Positions 1 to 8,323 of a DNA stretch of 64,000 bases are shown here, piece by piece. The translations under genes were made by a program, and so were the position numbers. Below the pieces are notes generated by a model, which saw only the letters and a list, made by a program, of their open reading frames with translations, had not been told where the DNA came from and did no database searches. Position 1 is the stretch's first letter; each line of letters begins with the position of its first letter. The DNA comes from Hyphomonadaceae bacterium (GTDB taxonomy: Bacteria > Pseudomonadota > Alphaproteobacteria > Caulobacterales > Aquidulcibacteraceae), in NCBI GenBank assembly GCA_019753175.1, contig JAIELK010000016.1, forward strand, positions 62,001 to 126,000, in the 5' to 3' direction.

Positions 1-3
1 TTT

Positions 4-11
4 GGAGGGGG
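4..11 (+). promoter_or_regulatory. Ribosome-binding site of the CHAT-like gene
   Basis: A GGAGGGGG run ends one base before the ATG at 13, so the spacing is tight but the match to the 16S anti-Shine-Dalgarno is strong. It supports 13 as the true start of the first gene. The promoter must lie to the left of the window. Confidence 0.6.
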
Positions 12-12
12 C

Positions 13-1476
13 ATGGCGAAGGGTAAGGCAAAGCGGGTTACAACGAAGCAGAAAGCCAAGGCGCCATCGCGTTCGAACCTGAAAAAGAACGTCACGAAGG
101 GCGTCAAGGCGCGTGCGGCGCAAGCCAGCAAGAACGCGGCCAAGAACAAGGCGGCGAAGACCGAGAAAGCAACGTCACGCGGGCAGCCGCGGGGTTCGCC
201 CGCTCGCGCAGAAAAACCCGCGGTGCGCGGCAAGCCAGAGCGTACGCTCCGGGTGGACCTCCGCCACGATAATGATTCCACGGAGGTGTTCTGGAGTTTG
301 CCGGGACGGGCGCCACGCGATCGTGAAGCCAAGGTCGGAGAAGAAGGCTGGGCGTGGGATGGCTATTACGTGTCCGCCAGCCTCATTGACCGCCTTGGCG
401 AGACAATCCGCGATCACCTGCATGAGCTTCAGGCGCTGGACTGGGTGGTGACGGACGAAGGCGTCAAGGGTGAGGTTACGCGCTGCAAAGCGATACTCGG
501 CCAGCTCATTGACACGGGGCGTGAACTGCACGCCGCCATCCTGAGGGGTCTGGATGGCGATGATTTGTCGATGAAGCGGGCGGAGCGTTTCAGAGAATGG
601 TTCAACAAGAACGTTCTTTCTGCGCCTGCCGGAACTTGGCGCATCGAAGTCATCCACGCCAAGTATTCGCGCACGATTGCACCATGGGCGCTGGCGTGCG
701 TGCCGATGCGACGCGAGGACATGGCGCAGCTCGATCCGCGCAAGCCGGATCAGTATTCGGATTTCTGGGGAGCGCGATTTAAGCTTGCCGTGAGAGGCAA
801 CACGCGCGACGCCCGCGACGGCTCGGACACACGCGACGGCGGCAACATGCGGCTGGCGTGTGTGCTCGAACTCGACGAGTATGCGGTGACTCAGATGGAG
901 AGCCGCCGCCCCGGAGAGGCCGAACGGATGCGCGATCATCTGGGCTGGGATAAGGACGGTTACGTCGAACTCGCGCAGAAACACATGCGCAAGGATTTAT
1001 TTTGGTACGTATCGCTGCAGGCGGACAAGGGCTCTTTCGTAATCGGAAAGGACGCGATCAGCTCGTCGGACTTGGCCGAAAACTCGACACTCAACGCCAA
1101 CACCGATCGCATTGTCTTGATGCTCCTCGATGGCGATGCAGTGATAAGAGGCGACCGCGGTCCAGATTGGCTGCGGCACGCGCTTGCGCTTGGCCGTTCC
1201 GGGCTGATTGCGGTCGAAACCGACATTAGAAACAATCGGATCAAGCATTTCGGTTGGTACATCTTGCGCGACATCCTGACTTCGGAGAAGCCGCTGCTTG
1301 ACGCCATGTCGGCGGCCCGGCGCAAGTTCTGGCCGCTGGGTTTGCTGTACGGCATCTATTGCAGTCCAGTGCACACCGCAGTGATGCCGCCGCCTGCGCA
1401 AACCATCCGTCAGGTCGACGACTGGATCAGCATCATCCGCTCCATCCCGCAAGAAGAAGCGCAGAGTTCATCATGA
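13..1476 (+). CDS. CHAT-like (caspase-fold) protein, catalytic dyad apparently lost; partner of nSTAND NTPase
   Basis: 487 residues. Residues 1-75 are a Lys/Ala/Arg-rich, low-complexity basic tail. From about 90 on, the protein follows the layout of CHAT domains: a helical stretch with a GRELHAAIL-type motif around 165-180, a strand then APWALAC at 223-229 (compare the IPWELLY motif of CHAT proteins), a strand FWYVSLQAD at 330-338 where active members carry the CHG histidine, a strand VLMLLDGDAV at 368-377 where they carry the NAC cysteine, and a C-terminal GLIAVETDI...ARRKFWPLGLLYGIY block like the GTLWPV...A...YGxP end of CHAT. Neither catalytic His nor Cys is present at the expected places, so it may be a pseudo-enzyme or my alignment may be off. 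The stop overlaps the next start (ATGA at 1473-1476), so translation is coupled with the NTPase. The CHAT call is by motif pattern only; the role in defence or regulated cell death is inference. Confidence 0.6.
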   Translation: MAKGKAKRVTTKQKAKAPSRSNLKKNVTKGVKARAAQASKNAAKNKAAKTEKATSRGQPRGSPARAEKPAVRGKPERTLRVDLRHDNDSTEVFWSLPGRAPRDREAKVGEEGWAWDGYYVSASLIDRLGETIRDHLHELQALDWVVTDEGVKGEVTRCKAILGQLIDTGRELHAAILRGLDGDDLSMKRAERFREWFNKNVLSAPAGTWRIEVIHAKYSRTIAPWALACVPMRREDMAQLDPRKPDQYSDFWGARFKLAVRGNTRDARDGSDTRDGGNMRLACVLELDEYAVTQMESRRPGEAERMRDHLGWDKDGYVELAQKHMRKDLFWYVSLQADKGSFVIGKDAISSSDLAENSTLNANTDRIVLMLLDGDAVIRGDRGPDWLRHALALGRSGLIAVETDIRNNRIKHFGWYILRDILTSEKPLLDAMSAARRKFWPLGLLYGIYCSPVHTAVMPPPAQTIRQVDDWISIIRSIPQEEAQSSS

Positions 1477-4400
1477 CTACGCCGAAGGCTAAAAACGCTA
1501 AGCAGCGACCAGCTGCAGAGCGGGCGCCCATAAGACCGGCTGCCCCCGTGACACGGCCTTATCCGGGTCTGCGTCACTATGACGAAGGCCGAGAATTGTA
1601 TTTCGCCGGTCGGGATCATGAGATCGAGGAGTGTGCGAGTTTGTTGCGAGATTCTCGCGTGCTGCTCCTTCATGGTCGAACCGGATGCGGCAAGTCGAGC
1701 TTCTTGCACGCCGGCGTCAAGCCGTTCTTGGCGCGAACCGGCTCGCCGATCAGCTTCGCGCAAGCGCGAGACGGTTTTTCGGTGGTGCGATCGACGGCTG
1801 ATCCCCTGCGAGCGGTGGGGTCCGCTTTGCTTGAGATTGCGGATTCCTTTATCGATCCAGAGAGCAACCCCAGTGGACGCGTGTTTGGACGGCTGGCGAG
1901 CGATGTCGATCCCGCGTCTATTGAAGCCGCCTTTCCCAAAGATGCGAAATTCAGAGAGAGTGTCCAAACGTCGGCGACAGCGGCGTTCTCTGCGCTGAAC
2001 ACCTTGGCGCGTGCGATGCGGACGCCGCCGATTATCGTCATAGACCAAGCGGAGGAGATCTTTACGCTCAAACCCCGCCGCGACCTCTCGCAATCGGGCA
2101 GTGAGGCGTCGCGTCAAGCGCTGGCGGAAGAACGCCGCGACCGTGAGTACTTCCGTTTCATCCAGATGGTCGCCTCGCGCGATGCGCGCACGCGGCTGGT
2201 CGTGTCCTTGCGTACTGAATACAAAGGACTGTTCGACGACCATATCGCCAAACATGGGCATGCCGGCGAGGACCTACGGGGCTTTCATTTACGCGACTTG
2301 GATGTCACGGCGTTACAGCAGGCGATCCTTCGACCGACACTGAGAAATGGGCCGGAGTGGCAACGCCTCAAGGCTAAACTGGACCTCGATGATGCGGCTC
2401 TGGCGCCCGGCGATGCGAGCGACGCATTGCGCATCTCCTCGGAGGCGGCGCTTGAACTCGCCAAAGGTCTGTTGAGTGAAAGGGTCCCGGTCGGTGGTGT
2501 GCTGCCGACATTGCAGGCGGCTTGCATTCGTCTTTGGGAGCAGTCAAAGCTCGCACGCGAACGGCGCGGAGGTCGCCACGAGATTGATGTCGCCGATCTG
2601 CGGCGCCTCGGTGAAATCGAAAACCAGGTTGAAGAGTATCTGCAAGAGCAAATAGAGCGCCAGTGTTCGCGCGTTGAAGCCTGGCGCGACAATCTTCCGG
2701 AGAAGGTTTCGATCTGGCTCGGCGCTTTGCGCGATCTTCTTGTCCGTGTCGAAGCCGACGGCCGCGCGGTGACCAACAGCATTGAGCTCAACGCCCTCAC
2801 AGAGGAGATCGCCAGCCGATTGCCAGGGGGGAAGAGCAATGTCGGCGCCGTAACGGAACGTCTGAAGGAGTTGCGGGATCCAATCTCAGGCATCCTGAAA
2901 CCCGACCAAGACAACATCACGCTGGGCCATGACAGCTTGGCGCTTGCACTGAACAAATGGTCGCTGGCGACCCCGCGCGACAGCAAGATGATGATGCGCA
3001 TGGGCATGGCCACCATGCACCGGTTGCGCGAGTTGCGTCGCGAGGACTTGTTTCTTGACGACGACCTCCCGCACGAAACCACGGTCATTTCCCCTGTGGA
3101 CTTCAATTGGGATCGCCAGTTGCCTCATTTCGCACAGGCGCGCGGCTTCGCGGAGCGATTGGGGATCAGGATTGCGTCTGACGCAAAGCTGGACGCGCGG
3201 CGCGATCTGCGACGCAAGTGGAACTGGGAAGCTCTGCGCGAAGCGCTGATCGAAAGGGAGCAGAGCTGGGGCGCGAAGCGGCGGTGGAACGGCGGTAATG
3301 AGCGGGTTATGGTCGCCGCGGAATTTGCCGCTTTTCCAGGCAAACCGGAAGCTGCCGAGAACTCGACGGCGGAGGCGGTGGGGCCAGCTATATATGCATG
3401 GCGCTGGTCTGATCTGCTCGTGTGCAATTTATTTGTCGGCAATGCCTTGGTCGGCCCCAACCCCAAATTCGCGGAGCGCATTGTCGACGCGATGAAGGTC
3501 TCGGAGGCGACCAATGCCGCAAAGGACGACGCTGTCCAGAACTTGGATGCGCCAGATCAGTTCGTGGAGGAACTGAAGGCGGTGGTGGTTAGTGCGCTGG
3601 AGGAAGTGCTTCGCTCTGGCGGCGAGATCAAATGTGCGAATGCAAGCGGGCGCCAGCTGCTTGTGCTTGCAGCAAAGATTTGTTGCAGACCAGATTTGGC
3701 GAAAGAGTTCGCGAAGCTGACCTCGCTCACGACGCTTGAGAATGCGGTTTACGATGTTGCAGATCCGCTGATCGAGCATCTTTTGGACGGCGACACGAGG
3801 TTCATTGTCGGGTCAGCCGCCTCCCGTGCGATGGCGCGTCAGTGCGGCTTCCATCCCTACTTCGGCGCCAAGGAAATCGCCATCCTTGCCCACAAGGAGA
3901 TGAAGAGGCGGCAGGGAGTGGATCGGCTGACCAACCGCCAGATTGACAAAAAAGAAAAAGATCGTCGGCGCGAACTACCCGACTTGGCCGCTGCGGTTCA
4001 AGAGACGATGGCGCACACGGTTTGGAACATCAGCGTGCCCGCGGCGACCTGGCGGCAGGGGCTCAATCGCGCGTTCATCCTGCGTTTGGCCTCGCTCGGT
4101 TACTTCACCAGCGAGTACGTGCGCACTTCGATGGACGATTTCATCGGCTACATCCACGAGTTCGTGAACCAGTCATTTCTTGCTGACACGCGAGGCGAGA
4201 ATGCCATGAGCGGTCAGCGGCAAATGCGATACGCCATCAAGGAGGCGATCGCAGATTGCTACACGTTCTTGCGCTTCGACGAGTTCGGACCTGCTATTTT
4301 CGATCTCGATTCGCTTTACGCCTACTGGTCCGAGCACGGGCAATTGCGAACGCGGTCGGTAGCGGGTGAGATCTACAATGAACTCGTCATGCTGCGGCAG

Positions 4401-4640
4401 AGGACGTTGGCGCACTATCAGATTTGCGCCGAGGCGATTGCCTGGATGCGTTACGGACGAACGTATGATCCCTCGCACGAGGACATCAGCAGAGCCTACA
4501 AGCTCAAGGAGCTGGCCTGGAATAACTTCAACATTTACAACTTTTATGATGCCGAACGCTACATGAGCCGGGCGGCGGATGAACTTAGGGGCTGCATGGA
4601 GCGGGACTTCCAGCGTAAGGACGCTGGCGTCGTTCAATAA
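1473..4640 (+). CDS. nSTAND1-type STAND NTPase with unrecognised C-terminal region
   Basis: 1055 residues from the ATG at 1473, which overlaps the previous stop; an in-frame upstream start at 1359 lies inside the neighbour and is not needed. A PYPGLRHYDE segment leads into a P-loop GRTGCGKSS (G68-S76, K74), Walker B IIVIDQAEEIF (D191, E194/E195), a sensor-type arginine in SLRTEY (R247), and a winged-helix end with ITLGHDSLALALNKW (H486, D487). This order is that of nSTAND1 NTPases, which act as switchable hubs in bacterial signalling and antiphage systems. Residues about 500-1055 are mostly helical with no WD40, TPR array or other repeat I can recognise, and would be the sensor or effector-binding part. 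Pairing with a CHAT-like protein matches known STAND-protease logic. Base composition and codon use (AAA, GAA, TTG, TTT more often) look less GC-biased than the core genes downstream. The target and trigger are unknown. Confidence 0.8.
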   Translation: MTTPKAKNAKQRPAAERAPIRPAAPVTRPYPGLRHYDEGRELYFAGRDHEIEECASLLRDSRVLLLHGRTGCGKSSFLHAGVKPFLARTGSPISFAQARDGFSVVRSTADPLRAVGSALLEIADSFIDPESNPSGRVFGRLASDVDPASIEAAFPKDAKFRESVQTSATAAFSALNTLARAMRTPPIIVIDQAEEIFTLKPRRDLSQSGSEASRQALAEERRDREYFRFIQMVASRDARTRLVVSLRTEYKGLFDDHIAKHGHAGEDLRGFHLRDLDVTALQQAILRPTLRNGPEWQRLKAKLDLDDAALAPGDASDALRISSEAALELAKGLLSERVPVGGVLPTLQAACIRLWEQSKLARERRGGRHEIDVADLRRLGEIENQVEEYLQEQIERQCSRVEAWRDNLPEKVSIWLGALRDLLVRVEADGRAVTNSIELNALTEEIASRLPGGKSNVGAVTERLKELRDPISGILKPDQDNITLGHDSLALALNKWSLATPRDSKMMMRMGMATMHRLRELRREDLFLDDDLPHETTVISPVDFNWDRQLPHFAQARGFAERLGIRIASDAKLDARRDLRRKWNWEALREALIEREQSWGAKRRWNGGNERVMVAAEFAAFPGKPEAAENSTAEAVGPAIYAWRWSDLLVCNLFVGNALVGPNPKFAERIVDAMKVSEATNAAKDDAVQNLDAPDQFVEELKAVVVSALEEVLRSGGEIKCANASGRQLLVLAAKICCRPDLAKEFAKLTSLTTLENAVYDVADPLIEHLLDGDTRFIVGSAASRAMARQCGFHPYFGAKEIAILAHKEMKRRQGVDRLTNRQIDKKEKDRRRELPDLAAAVQETMAHTVWNISVPAATWRQGLNRAFILRLASLGYFTSEYVRTSMDDFIGYIHEFVNQSFLADTRGENAMSGQRQMRYAIKEAIADCYTFLRFDEFGPAIFDLDSLYAYWSEHGQLRTRSVAGEIYNELVMLRQRTLAHYQICAEAIAWMRYGRTYDPSHEDISRAYKLKELAWNNFNIYNFYDAERYMSRAADELRGCMERDFQRKDAGVVQ

Positions 4641-4674: not shown

Positions 4675-4749
4675 TGGAGCGGGCAGGGGGAATCGAACCC
4701 CCGACATTCAGCTTGGGAAGCTGACGTTCTACCTCTGAACTATGCCCGC
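4675..4749 (-). tRNA. tRNA-Gly (anticodon CCC)
   Basis: On the minus strand the 75-nt sequence starts GCGGGCA and ends TGCCCGC-T-CCA, giving a perfect 7-bp acceptor stem and an encoded CCA. The anticodon arm is TCAGC-TTCCCAA-GCTGA with CCC at 34-36, and the T arm carries GGTTCGATTCC. It reads GGG codons. Its 3' end (4675) faces the CHAT/nSTAND cassette 34 bp away, the usual position of an integrated element relative to a tRNA. No direct repeat of its 3' end is seen in the window, but the far side of any island would be left of position 1. Confidence 0.95.
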
Positions 4750-4867
4750 GACAGCGTTAGCGCAACGATAGGCGATTTCCGCGGCTGGCGCCAGCGCTGG
4801 CGCGCTCGACAGCCCGGCGCGCGGCGCCTAGGTTCGCGCCGATGCCGCCGCCCCGGAGCCGCGTAAG

Positions 4868-6886
4868 ATGACACCGCTGCAGCTTGAAAACTTCGCCGAA
4901 GGCCGATGGGTACGGAGCGGCGGCGCGCGCGCCGAAGCGCGGTCGGCGATCGATGGCGCGGTGGTCGCGACCCTGGGCGCGGAAGGCGTCGACTTCGGCG
5001 CGATGCTTGCGTTTGCGCGCAGCAAAGGCGGTGCAGCGCTGCGGGCCATGACCTTCCATCAGCGCGCGCGCATGCTGAAGGCGTTGGCGGATGCTCTGAC
5101 CACGCGCAAGGAAGAGCTTTACGCGCTGTCCTTCGACACCGGCGCCACGCGCGCCGACAGTTGGATCGACGTCGACGGCGGCATCGGCACGTTCGCCGTG
5201 TATCAGTCCAAGGGGAGGCGCGAGCTGCCGAACGCGCGCGTCCTGGTCGACGGCGAGGTGGAGGCGCTTTCGCGCAACGGTACGTTCCAGGGGCTGCACG
5301 TGTACACGCCGCTGCAGGGCGCGGCGGTGCACATCAACGCCTTCAATTTCCCGGTCTGGGGCATGCTGGAGAAGCTGGCGCCGACCTTTCTCGCTGGCGT
5401 GCCGGCGATCGTGAAGCCGGCGAGCGCGACCGCGTATCTCACCGAACGCGCTGTGCGCATCATGCTCGACGCAGGCGTGCTGCCCGACGGCGCGCTGCAG
5501 CTGATCGTGGGCGGGGTGGGCGATCTGTTCGATCATTTGACTTGCCAGGACGTCGTGTCCTTCACCGGCTCGGCGACGACGGCGGAGAGATTGCAGCGCC
5601 ACCCGGTGATCGCGCTCGAGAGCGTGCGCTTTGTTGCCGAACGAGACTCGCTCAACGCCTCCGTGCTTGGACCGGACGCGACATCGGCGAGTGCAGAGTT
5701 CGACCTCTTCATCAAGGAAGTGGCGCGCGAGATGACGGTGAAGGCCGGACAGAAGTGTACGGCAATCCGTCGCGCGCTGGTCCCGGAGCCGCTCCTCGAA
5801 GAGGCGCAGGCGGCGCTTTCGGCACGGCTGGAGGCGCTGCAACCCGGCGATCCGCGCGCGGAGAGCACAAAGCTCGGCGCGCTGGTCAGCCGAGCACAGC
5901 GCGATGACGTTCGCGACAAGATCGGCGAACTGGCGCGCGAGGCCAAAATCGTGTTCGGGGATCCGGCGCGGTCGCCGGTGGACGAGCGCGGTGCGTTCCT
6001 GTCGCCCGTCTTGCTGCGCTGCGACGCACCTTGGCGCGCGGCTGCGGTGCACGATGTGGAAGCGTTCGGCCCAGTGGCGACCATGATGCCGTACAAGGAC
6101 GCAAGCGACGCGCTTGCGCTCGCCAATCGCGGCAAAGGTTCGCTGGTGATGAGCGTGTTCACGTATGACGACGCGTTTGCGTCGGAGGTCGTATCGAGCA
6201 GCGGCGCGTTTCATGGACGCATCGCCTTCATCGACCGCGACAGCGCCAAGGAGAGCACTGGCCACGGTTCGCCGCTGCCGCACATGATCCATGGCGGTCC
6301 CGGCCGCGCCGGCGGCGGCGAGGAGATGGGCGGGATGCGTGGGGTAAAGCACTATATGCAGCGCACTGCGTTGCAGGGGCATCCGCGCGTGCTGAGCGCG
6401 ATCGCGGGCAAGTACGTCACCGGTGCGCCGACGCGGGCGGCGAGCGAACATCCGTTCCGGCGTAAGTTCCACGATTTGCCGATCGGCTATCAGCTCAAAA
6501 CCAAGGCGCGGACGATCACGCTCGAAGACATTGAGCATTTTGCGCACTTTACCGGCGATACGTTCTACGCGCACATGGACGAGGAGGCGGCGAAGGCCAA
6601 TCCGCTGTTCGGCGGGCGCGTCGCGCACGGCTATCTCATTCTGGCGTTTGCGGCTGGGCTCTTCGTCGATCCGGACCCCGGCCCGGTGCTCGCCAATTAC
6701 GGGCTCGACAGCTTGCGCTTCGTCAAGCCGGTGAAGCCCGGCGACAGCATCCAAGTCGCGCTGACGGTGAAAGACAAGACGCTGCGCAAACCTGACCAGG
6801 GGGAAATGCGATGGGATGTCGTCGTCACCAACCAGAATGGCGAAACGGTCGCCGCCTATGATCTCCTCACCATGAACGCTGCCTGA
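4868..6886 (+). CDS. paaZ: Bifunctional aldehyde dehydrogenase / enoyl-CoA hydratase (PaaZ type)
   Basis: 672 residues, the family length. PaaZ opens the oxepin-CoA ring in aerobic phenylacetate breakdown through a MaoC-type hydratase domain and oxidises the resulting semialdehyde with NADP through an aldehyde dehydrogenase domain. The dehydrogenase part (about 1-515) has the catalytic cysteine in GQKCTA (C297) and glutamate E258. The C-terminal MaoC part has the hydratase pair in [10 protein letters not shown] (D564, H569), spaced as in the E. coli enzyme. No paaABCDE, paaK, paaG, paaH or paaJ lies nearby, so either the rest of the pathway is elsewhere or the enzyme serves another ring-opening or aldehyde route. 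The downstream M20 gene starts 9 bp after the stop, suggesting one transcript. Confidence 0.9.
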
Positions 6887-6895
6887 GAGGCGAAG

Positions 6896-8323
6896 ATGTC
6901 CGAATTCGTTCAATCGAAGCTGCGCCAGTTCGTCGATGAAATGTGGCGCGACGAGATCGTGCCCACGCTCGTCGACTACATCCGCATTCCCAACAAGTCG
7001 CCGTCGTTCGAGCCGGACTGGGCCACGCTCGGGCACATGGACAAGGCGGTCGACATGTTCGCGGCTTGGGCGCGGGCCAGACTCGTGCATTTGCCGGGCG
7101 CAACGCTTTCGGTCGAACGCTTGCCGGGGCGCACGCCGCTCATTTTCATCGACGTGCCCGGAACCGCGCGCGGCGGCGACACGGTGATGCTCTACGGCCA
7201 CCTCGACAAGCAGCCGGAAATGACCGGTTGGAGTGACGGGAAGGGGCCGTGGATTCCTGTACTCGAAGGCGACAAGCTCTACGGACGCGGCGGCGCCGAC
7301 GACGGCTACGCCATGTTCGGCGCGCTGGCGGCGCTGCTGGCGTTGAAAGAGCAGAACGTGGCGCACGCGCGCGCGGTGATCGTGATCGAAGCCTCGGAGG
7401 AGTCCGGCTCGCCCGATCTGCCATTCTACATGGATGCGCTGGCCGACCGCATCGGCACGGTCTCGCTGGTTGTCTGTCTCGACAGCGGTTGCGGCGACTA
7501 CGAGCGGCTGTGGCTGACGACGTCGCTCCGCGGCCTGGTCGGCGGCACACTGCGCGTCGATGTGCTAGAGGAGGGCGTCCACTCCGGCGACGCATCCGGA
7601 ATCGTGCCATCGAGCTTCCGCATCTTGCGTCAGTTGTTGGCGCGGCTTGAGAATGTGGACACGGGCGAGGTCATCGTCGGTGAACTAGGGGCGCCGATTC
7701 CCGCCGACCGCATCGCACAAGCCAGGGTCGCCGCGGGGGCGCTGGGCGAACAGGTGTACGCCAAGTTTCCGTTCGTGGCCGGCATGCGTCCGGCGACGAA
7801 CGATCCTGTCGAACTCGTGCTCAACCGGACGTGGCGTCCCGCGTTATCGGTGACCGGCTTGGCTGGCGCGCCGGCGCCGCGCGACGCAGGCAACGTGCTT
7901 CGGCCGTTTACCGAGGCGAAGCTCTCGATGCGCGTCCCGCCGACACTCGATGGCAAGATGGCGAGCGCGCGGCTGAAGCAAATCCTGGAGGCGGATCCGC
8001 CTTATGGCGCGCGGGTGACCTACGAGGGCGAGAAAGACGGTTCGGGTTGGAACGCGCCGGCGACGGCCCCGTGGCTCGAGGCGGCTCTTGAAGACGCGTC
8101 GCACGCGAGCTTCGGTAAGCCAATGGCGATGATGGGTGAGGGCGGCTCGATCCCATTCATGGGCATGCTGGGCGAGAAGTTCCCCGAAGCGCAGTTCGTC
8201 GTCACCGGCGTGCTCGGCCCGCACTCGAATGCGCATGGGCCAAACGAGTTCTTGCACATACCGACCGGCAAGAAGGTCACGGAAGTGGTTGCCCGTGTGC
8301 TGGCCGCGCACGCTGTGCGCTAA
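6896..8323 (+). CDS. M20 family metallopeptidase (dipeptidase-like)
   Basis: 475 residues. M20 enzymes are dizinc exopeptidases that cleave dipeptides or acylated amino acids in the cytoplasm. The first metal site is in MLYGHLDKQPEM, the bridging Asp in GRGGADDGYAMF, the catalytic and metal glutamates in EASEESGS, and the C-terminal metal His in GVLGPHSNAHGPNE. A dimerisation lid domain sits between. No signal peptide is present. An AGAGGCGAAG stretch before the ATG at 6896 serves as ribosome-binding site. The exact substrate cannot be told from sequence. It ends one base before the convergent hybrid kinase gene. Confidence 0.9.
   Translation: MSEFVQSKLRQFVDEMWRDEIVPTLVDYIRIPNKSPSFEPDWATLGHMDKAVDMFAAWARARLVHLPGATLSVERLPGRTPLIFIDVPGTARGGDTVMLYGHLDKQPEMTGWSDGKGPWIPVLEGDKLYGRGGADDGYAMFGALAALLALKEQNVAHARAVIVIEASEESGSPDLPFYMDALADRIGTVSLVVCLDSGCGDYERLWLTTSLRGLVGGTLRVDVLEEGVHSGDASGIVPSSFRILRQLLARLENVDTGEVIVGELGAPIPADRIAQARVAAGALGEQVYAKFPFVAGMRPATNDPVELVLNRTWRPALSVTGLAGAPAPRDAGNVLRPFTEAKLSMRVPPTLDGKMASARLKQILEADPPYGARVTYEGEKDGSGWNAPATAPWLEAALEDASHASFGKPMAMMGEGGSIPFMGMLGEKFPEAQFVVTGVLGPHSNAHGPNEFLHIPTGKKVTEVVARVLAAHAVR

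Follow-up and report, generated by a model that had tools for sequence, protein, structure and literature searches.

Two overlapping genes of a Hyphomonadaceae bacterium belong to a rare STAND NTPase operon of three genes, a candidate conflict system

We analysed a stretch of 64,000 nucleotides from a Hyphomonadaceae bacterium (GCA_019753175.1, contig JAIELK010000016.1, positions 62,001 to 126,000), here called the window, at the left edge of which lie two overlapping genes, B and C. They turned out to be the second and third genes of a rare operon, A-B-C, which is cut by the window edge. Gene A, located in the upstream DNA of the same genome, is on the same strand and ends 16 bp before the ATG of gene B, so that the window (62001-126000 of contig C3 in genome G000) starts inside the gene cluster. 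The original prediction had described a two-gene module; the pair is real, 487 and 1055 aa long and overlapping as ATGA at 1473-1476, where the stop of B meets the start of C, but the unit comprises three genes. From the domains encoded, we lean towards reading A-B-C as a conflict operon of the NLR-like kind, for which an anti-phage or abortive function is the most likely. In this reading it combines a TIR-like effector and two STAND NTPases with a middle protein that is unclassified, and it is best seen as a new variant of the STAND NTPase-FGE systems.

Among 385 sampled genomes of the class, full-length or nearly full-length relatives of gene C were found only in two metagenome-assembled genomes (MAGs), the alphaproteobacterial IP29b_bin.162 (G222; JANQPL010000009.1) and PL25b_bin.64 (G325; JANQMY010000610.1), which belong to another family than the window's genome. 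The order A-B-C is intact in G222 (locus L020, 6665-9871, 9917-11161 and 11211-14399). All three genes are also held by G325, split over two loci: L027 ends with A and the start of B, while C, on L021, is cut by the contig end and begins inside the Walker A motif. The pair B and C, adjacent in one MAG and separated only by a contig end in the other, is thus a conserved neighbourhood. Identity to the genes of the window's organism is 29% for A, 41% for B and 44% for C.

Comparing G222 with G325, the ratio of nonsynonymous to synonymous substitution rates (dN/dS) was 0.072 for A (1066 codons), 0.042 for B (237 codons) and 0.036 for C (968 codons). With dS at 1.1-1.3 these ratios are rough, and being low they indicate that all three genes are maintained by purifying selection. 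Since the reading frames of B and C are kept in a second genus, neither is a chance open reading frame (ORF). The notion that two unrelated genes were joined by chance beside a tRNA, for which one could cite a modest difference in codon use and a tRNA junction unseen in 12 sister stretches, is already refuted by this conservation and deserves practically no credence: A-B-C is found in the same order in another family, at 29-44% identity, with purifying selection on all three genes.

Gene B was found in the window's own genome only, both among 101 relatives and among 349 genomes of the phylum. In the collection of genome contigs its relatives were confined to the two MAGs, as found by a scan with two peptide patterns from the B alignment; searching these contigs with the window's gene B protein (P0001) alone gave no relative, and none was found in viral contigs, plasmids or phages. 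Eleven other genomes of the class matched gene C, and only its N-terminal NTPase region was in common. Among the neighbours of 11 nSTAND1 loci from ten of these genomes (G107 was left out) there was no convincing relative of gene B, the best match having an E-value of 0.23.

The product of gene C is, judged by its sequence, a clear nSTAND1 NTPase, as the original prediction had stated. The Pfam model (PF20703) matches residues 29-396 with 111.7 bits (E 7.9e-32), against a curated cut-off of 27.1, and the ortholog reaches 124.5 bits (E 1e-35). K74 of Walker A, D191 of Walker B and the G485-HDSLA-490 motif, all singled out earlier, are invariant in the three aligned sequences (own and two relatives), as are E194 and E195. 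For residues ~488-1055, a region of 568 residues, no convincing family match was obtained in Pfam, NCBIfam or the PDB; the best PDB match (E 0.041) was judged to be chance. This C-terminal region is present in three of the 385 class genomes, own included, with a marginal extra match in G178 (E 0.005), and it was not found in the viral contigs searched. N-terminal tails rich in Lys, Pro and Ala occur in the two nSTAND1 orthologs whose start is complete (window 1473-1556; L020 11211-11360). In another genome, G380, an nSTAND1 protein of 1082 aa ends a three-gene run (L081 2596-8817), the first two genes of which open with similar stretches, by eye possibly a homotypic adaptor domain.

Gene A is laid out like an NLR: a possible effector comes first, then an NTPase, then a possible sensor. 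The FGE-sulfatase domain at residues 810-1045 was matched with an E-value of 1.5e-22 (8e-19 in a second copy). In all three copies its block from GGSW to GFR, where the active Cys pair of FGE enzymes lies, is devoid of Cys, which points to a domain that binds rather than one that catalyses. The P-loop was matched by AAA_16 (E 6e-5) and NACHT (E 1.3e-3 and 2.6e-4), in all cases below the Pfam cut-offs, and both the P-loop and a DGLDE block are conserved between two copies.

The N-terminus of gene A looks TIR-like by eye, with DGF[VI]S.R and a conserved Cys and Glu. Aligned by hhalign with 25 TIR_2 domains, the three N-termini scored 28.6 (41% probability), compared with a mean of 12.6 (standard deviation 2.7, maximum 20.8) for 50 shuffles; the TIR set comprised 25 of 30 loci, L111, L112, L113, L116 and L119 being left out as short or weak. 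We regard this region as a possible, divergent TIR domain, for which the profile support is moderate at the level of the family. Between G222 and G325, most amino-acid change within gene A falls in the linker (dN 0.199), the TIR-like part (0.103) and the FGE part (0.091), as would be expected for effector and sensor parts. The window's genome is rich in TIR domains, with 16 TIR_2 matches (14 over the cut-off) in 3.13 Mb; the next highest of 76 class genomes has seven. Three of the matches lie within ~5 kb on contig C16 (e.g. C16:12117-17221).

If A-B-C is a conflict operon, a product of the invader would be recognised by A through its FGE domain, which is of the C-type-lectin fold, by C through its C-terminal region, or by both. 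ATP binding by the two STAND NTPases would then serve as a switch and lead to assembly of a complex. B, the stop of which runs into the start codon of C, is the natural candidate for a non-catalytic link between A and C. As the effector, the TIR-like domain of A would deplete or convert NAD+ or produce a signal, and cell death may follow. In the window's genome, a SLATT membrane protein encoded divergently from A may act as a second effector, a pore that answers a nucleotide signal. For related systems, Kaur et al. (2020, PMC7159879; 2021, PMC8195603) assign functions of this sort to the FGS, TIR and SLATT domains, likewise as predictions. A more specific version, which we put forward only tentatively, is a two-tier NLR relay, in which the TIR-like/NACHT/FGE protein A would signal through B, as a new adaptor family distinct from proteases and from all known effector-associated domains, to C, a second and structurally distinct STAND NTPase with a new C-terminal recognition domain. 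Such a relay, if true, would be comparable to the sensor-helper NLR pairs of plants.

Several observations weigh against reading A-B-C as a conflict operon. No defence model was matched strongly; the best PADLOC match, to mad8, had an E-value of 0.006 and was the sole row for B and C. The operon is known from only three genomes, a count from a pattern-based scan that can miss distant members. As for the TIR domain, all 25 true TIRs scored at least 54 in leave-one-out, against 28.6 for the gene A family, and single copies scored 21.8 (gene A of G222) and 14.9 (gene A of the window's organism, within noise). The best E-value with Pfam TIR was 0.19, in one of the three N-termini; gene A is not among the 16 places listed by the TIR_2 search of its own genome, and AlphaFold gave no usable model of the candidate domain (pLDDT 32.5). 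The SLATT gene is absent from the examined operon neighbourhood in G222, and no Pfam match was obtained for its Novosphingobium relative (38% identity over 98%). The claim of a candidate defence or cell-death module nevertheless stands as something we infer, since the pair belongs to a STAND-type operon; what lacks support is its caspase or CHAT half.

That half concerned gene B, the product of which had been described as having a CHAT-like, caspase-fold layout. Scans of the protein with Pfam, NCBIfam and PADLOC gave nothing over cut-off; a Pfam DUF2914 row (E 0.005) was below the DUF2914 cut-off. Pfam CHAT (PF12770) did not match P0001 at E <=1 or the gene B ortholog (P0006) at E <=5, the same model gave no match in the whole genome of the window, and a PDB sequence search gave no support for CHAT or caspase homology. 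For a more sensitive comparison, 28 CHAT domains from class genomes served as reference, drawn from 30 loci after L049 and L056 (partial domain) had been dropped. In leave-one-out, hhalign recovered all 28 (lowest score 46.3, 87.6% probability), and the gene B family scored 13.6, at the level of noise (50 shuffles: mean 14.1, maximum 19.2). Run without filters, hmmsearch listed neither P0001 nor P0006, yet it listed 210 of 500 and 175 of 500 shuffles. Four C-terminal sub-regions scored 10.5-10.9 in hhalign and were equalled or beaten by 50-57 of 60 shuffles. As the gene B family consists of three sequences, one of them partial, a very divergent CHAT could escape this profile test. Homology of gene B to CHAT or caspase proteins is therefore unsupported by the family scans, the whole-genome CHAT search, the PDB search and the controlled profile comparisons, and we have dropped this assignment.

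Inspection of the alignment agrees. Most, though not all, of the 28 CHAT domains have a THG block (FATHG) with the His and a SAC block (LSACNT) with the Cys, and both blocks are absent from P0001 and P0006. The only His and Cys residues common to the two proteins are H85, H215, C450 and H454, C450 being the sole conserved Cys and lying near the C-terminal end. By sequence, gene B has no recognisable CHAT-type His/Cys catalytic pair and shows no sign of being a protease. The AlphaFold model (pLDDT 34.7, pTM 0.25) was too poor for a fold search. A basic N-terminal tail of 75 residues is absent from P0006, the longer basic tail being found only in the window's genome.

What remains of the resemblance was seen by eye, helped only by that unreliable model: the last 130 residues appear to form a strand, a helix, a strand, two helices and a strand, with LLYGIYCSP at the end. 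We consider it quite improbable that gene B is an active CHAT or caspase-like protease under the control of the nSTAND1 protein C, on the pattern of other abortive systems that pair a protease with a STAND protein. This secondary-structure run and the LLYGIYCSP end are as in CHAT domains, IAPWALA recalls their lPf/lPw block (again by eye and with the same model), and in Novosphingobium a SLATT relative has a true CHAT gene as its neighbour; against this stand the lack of any Pfam CHAT match, of CHAT domains in the genome, of profile scores above shuffle noise and of a His-Gly or SAC-type Cys block. A degenerate CHAT, a pseudo-protease serving as scaffold or decoy in a complex, is easier to accommodate, and we hold it possible but doubtful. 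It would account for the same C-terminal layout and for the conserved MLxDGDAVIRxDRG and GLIAVETDI, which lie at the positions expected for the Cys loop and the strand after it, and ~70% of the caspase domains at effector position in vWA ternary systems are catalytically inactive (PMC7159879). The negative hhalign and hmmsearch results speak against it and lend no support to homology.

The divergent gene next to A encodes a protein of 645 aa with a DUF4231 match of 28.2 bits, over the cut-off of 24.7, and an NCBIfam SLATT_1 match just under its cut-off (39.6 bits versus 41, E 4e-10). Only 39 bp separate the listed start codons of the two genes. Relatives of the SLATT gene were found in three plasmid records, two of which were examined. 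On the plasmid of Novosphingobium sp. RL4 (L125) the relative adjoins a TIR gene and a true CHAT gene, and on that of Caballeronia sp. SBC2 (L126) TIR and nSTAND1 genes; on both, the SLATT gene keeps company with the same domain vocabulary as the operon. A gene for a Tle1-like phospholipase (Pfam E 1e-63) adjoins the SLATT and CHAT genes on L125 (13513-16266, minus strand).

As to the genomic setting, the cassette lies beside a tRNA, as noted originally. The claim that its codon use is less GC-biased holds only weakly: G+C content at third codon positions (GC3) is indeed lower in gene B (0.725) and gene C (0.694), by 1.0 and 1.7 standard deviations, and A, B and C span 0.683-0.725. The comparison comprised 42 other ORFs from the window and 20 kb upstream (mean 0.770, standard deviation 0.045, minimum 0.678), picked mechanically; at least one of them, 4757-7366, runs antisense. 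On either side the block is flanked by genes with orthologs elsewhere in the genus. Three left-flank genes are present without the A-B-C block in G008, and the right-flank gene (4868-6886) has other neighbours in sister genomes. An ortholog matching the right-flank gene over nearly its full length was present in 18 sister genomes, and the stretches beside it were compared in 12 of these; in the 12 stretches there was no tRNA-Gly, and no upstream ORF of the window's genome (ORFs of at least 150 aa were compared) was matched over half its length, the right-flank ortholog itself being clipped below the match cut-off in L068, L070, L075 and L076. The patchy presence, the flanks and GC3 fit an accessory, horizontally moving block, without proving it.

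This setting also bears on the idea that the operon is a signalling or developmental regulator rather than a defence system, given that STAND NTPases also control transcription and other processes. In its favour, no defence model did better than E 0.006. On the other side, the patchy presence (own genome only, of the 101 searched), the flanking genes that occur without the block or with other neighbours, and the vocabulary of SLATT, FGE and possible TIR domains make a regulator unlikely in our view, and we keep to the conflict-operon reading. The features of the locus are compiled in Table 1.

Table 1. Coordinates of the A-B-C operon and adjacent features (window positions unless a contig is given)
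Feature	Position	Strand	Description
Divergent gene	G000:C3:56867-58804 (L003 4867-6804)	-	645 aa, DUF4231/SLATT protein
Gene A	G000:C3:58844-61996 (L003 6844-9996)	+	1050 aa; outside the window, ends 4 bp before it
Part of A-B gap	1..12	+	gap 16 bp in total
GGAGG	4-8		just 5' of gene B start
Gene B	13..1476	+	487 aa, open frame; unclassified, no family match over cut-off
Basic N-terminal tail of gene B product	13..237	+	24 K/R, 2 D/E and 16 A among its 75 residues
Gene C	1473..4640	+	1055 aa STAND NTPase, open frame
nSTAND1 NTPase domain of gene C	1557..2660	+	residues 29-396
GHDSLA of gene C	2925..2942	+	residues 485-490
C-terminal region of gene C	2934..4637	+	residues 488-1055
tRNA-Gly (CCC)	4675..4749	-	just 3' of gene C

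No description of the A-B-C operon or of the gene B family was found among the open-access papers searched. The closest known systems are the STAND NTPase-FGS proteins with TIR effectors, a described class of conflict systems in which FGS stands for the FGE-sulfatase/C-type lectin fold (Kaur et al. 2021, PMC8195603). Gene A resembles these in its NTPase followed by a C-terminal FGE domain and in its putative N-terminal TIR domain, TIR being listed in that paper among the N-terminal domains. It differs in being encoded in one operon together with B and with C, another STAND NTPase; no effector-associated domain was matched. The antigen sensors linked to diversity-generating retroelements (DGRs; Dore et al. 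2024, PMC10907252) likewise have NACHT or nSTAND1 NTPases with FGE/C-lectin C-termini, and TIR and peptidase partners in their vicinity. In the present operon it is A, not the nSTAND1 protein, that bears the FGE domain; C has an unclassified C-terminal region in its place, and there is no DGR. A search for RVT_1 gave no match in the window's genome (99.94% complete), none in G325 and one in G222, on another contig; as no reverse transcriptase was found in the window's genome, we assume no DGR diversification there, and a DGR origin of FGE variability was rejected.

The MoxR-vWA ternary systems (VMAP/iSTAND; Kaur et al. 2020, PMC7159879) are similar in their several coupled genes around an NTPase core and in common effector domains, among them FGS, TIR and caspase domains that are often inactive. 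SLATT is described there as a nucleotide-responsive pore effector of GTPase-centred systems. The proteins that we scanned gave no match to a MoxR ATPase, a vWA protein or a VMAP. To the CHAT proteases (PF12770) gene B is similar only in its secondary structure and C-terminus as seen by eye, and it differs in having no detectable sequence relationship or CHAT-type His/Cys pair. The layout of gene A, effector-STAND-sensor, is that of antiviral STAND (Avs) and bacterial NACHT proteins. These mostly act as single STAND proteins; A-B-C encodes two STAND NTPases along with a third protein.

For two unclassified regions, the B protein and the 568-residue C-terminus of C, the operon provides a small set of sequences on which to test ideas. 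Most of the NLR-like defences known in bacteria consist of a single STAND protein or of a MoxR-vWA ternary set. An operon in which purifying selection maintains two different STAND NTPases and an unclassified protein would make a tractable case for studying how NTPase switches cooperate, for which the sensor-helper NLR pairs of plants provide the comparison.

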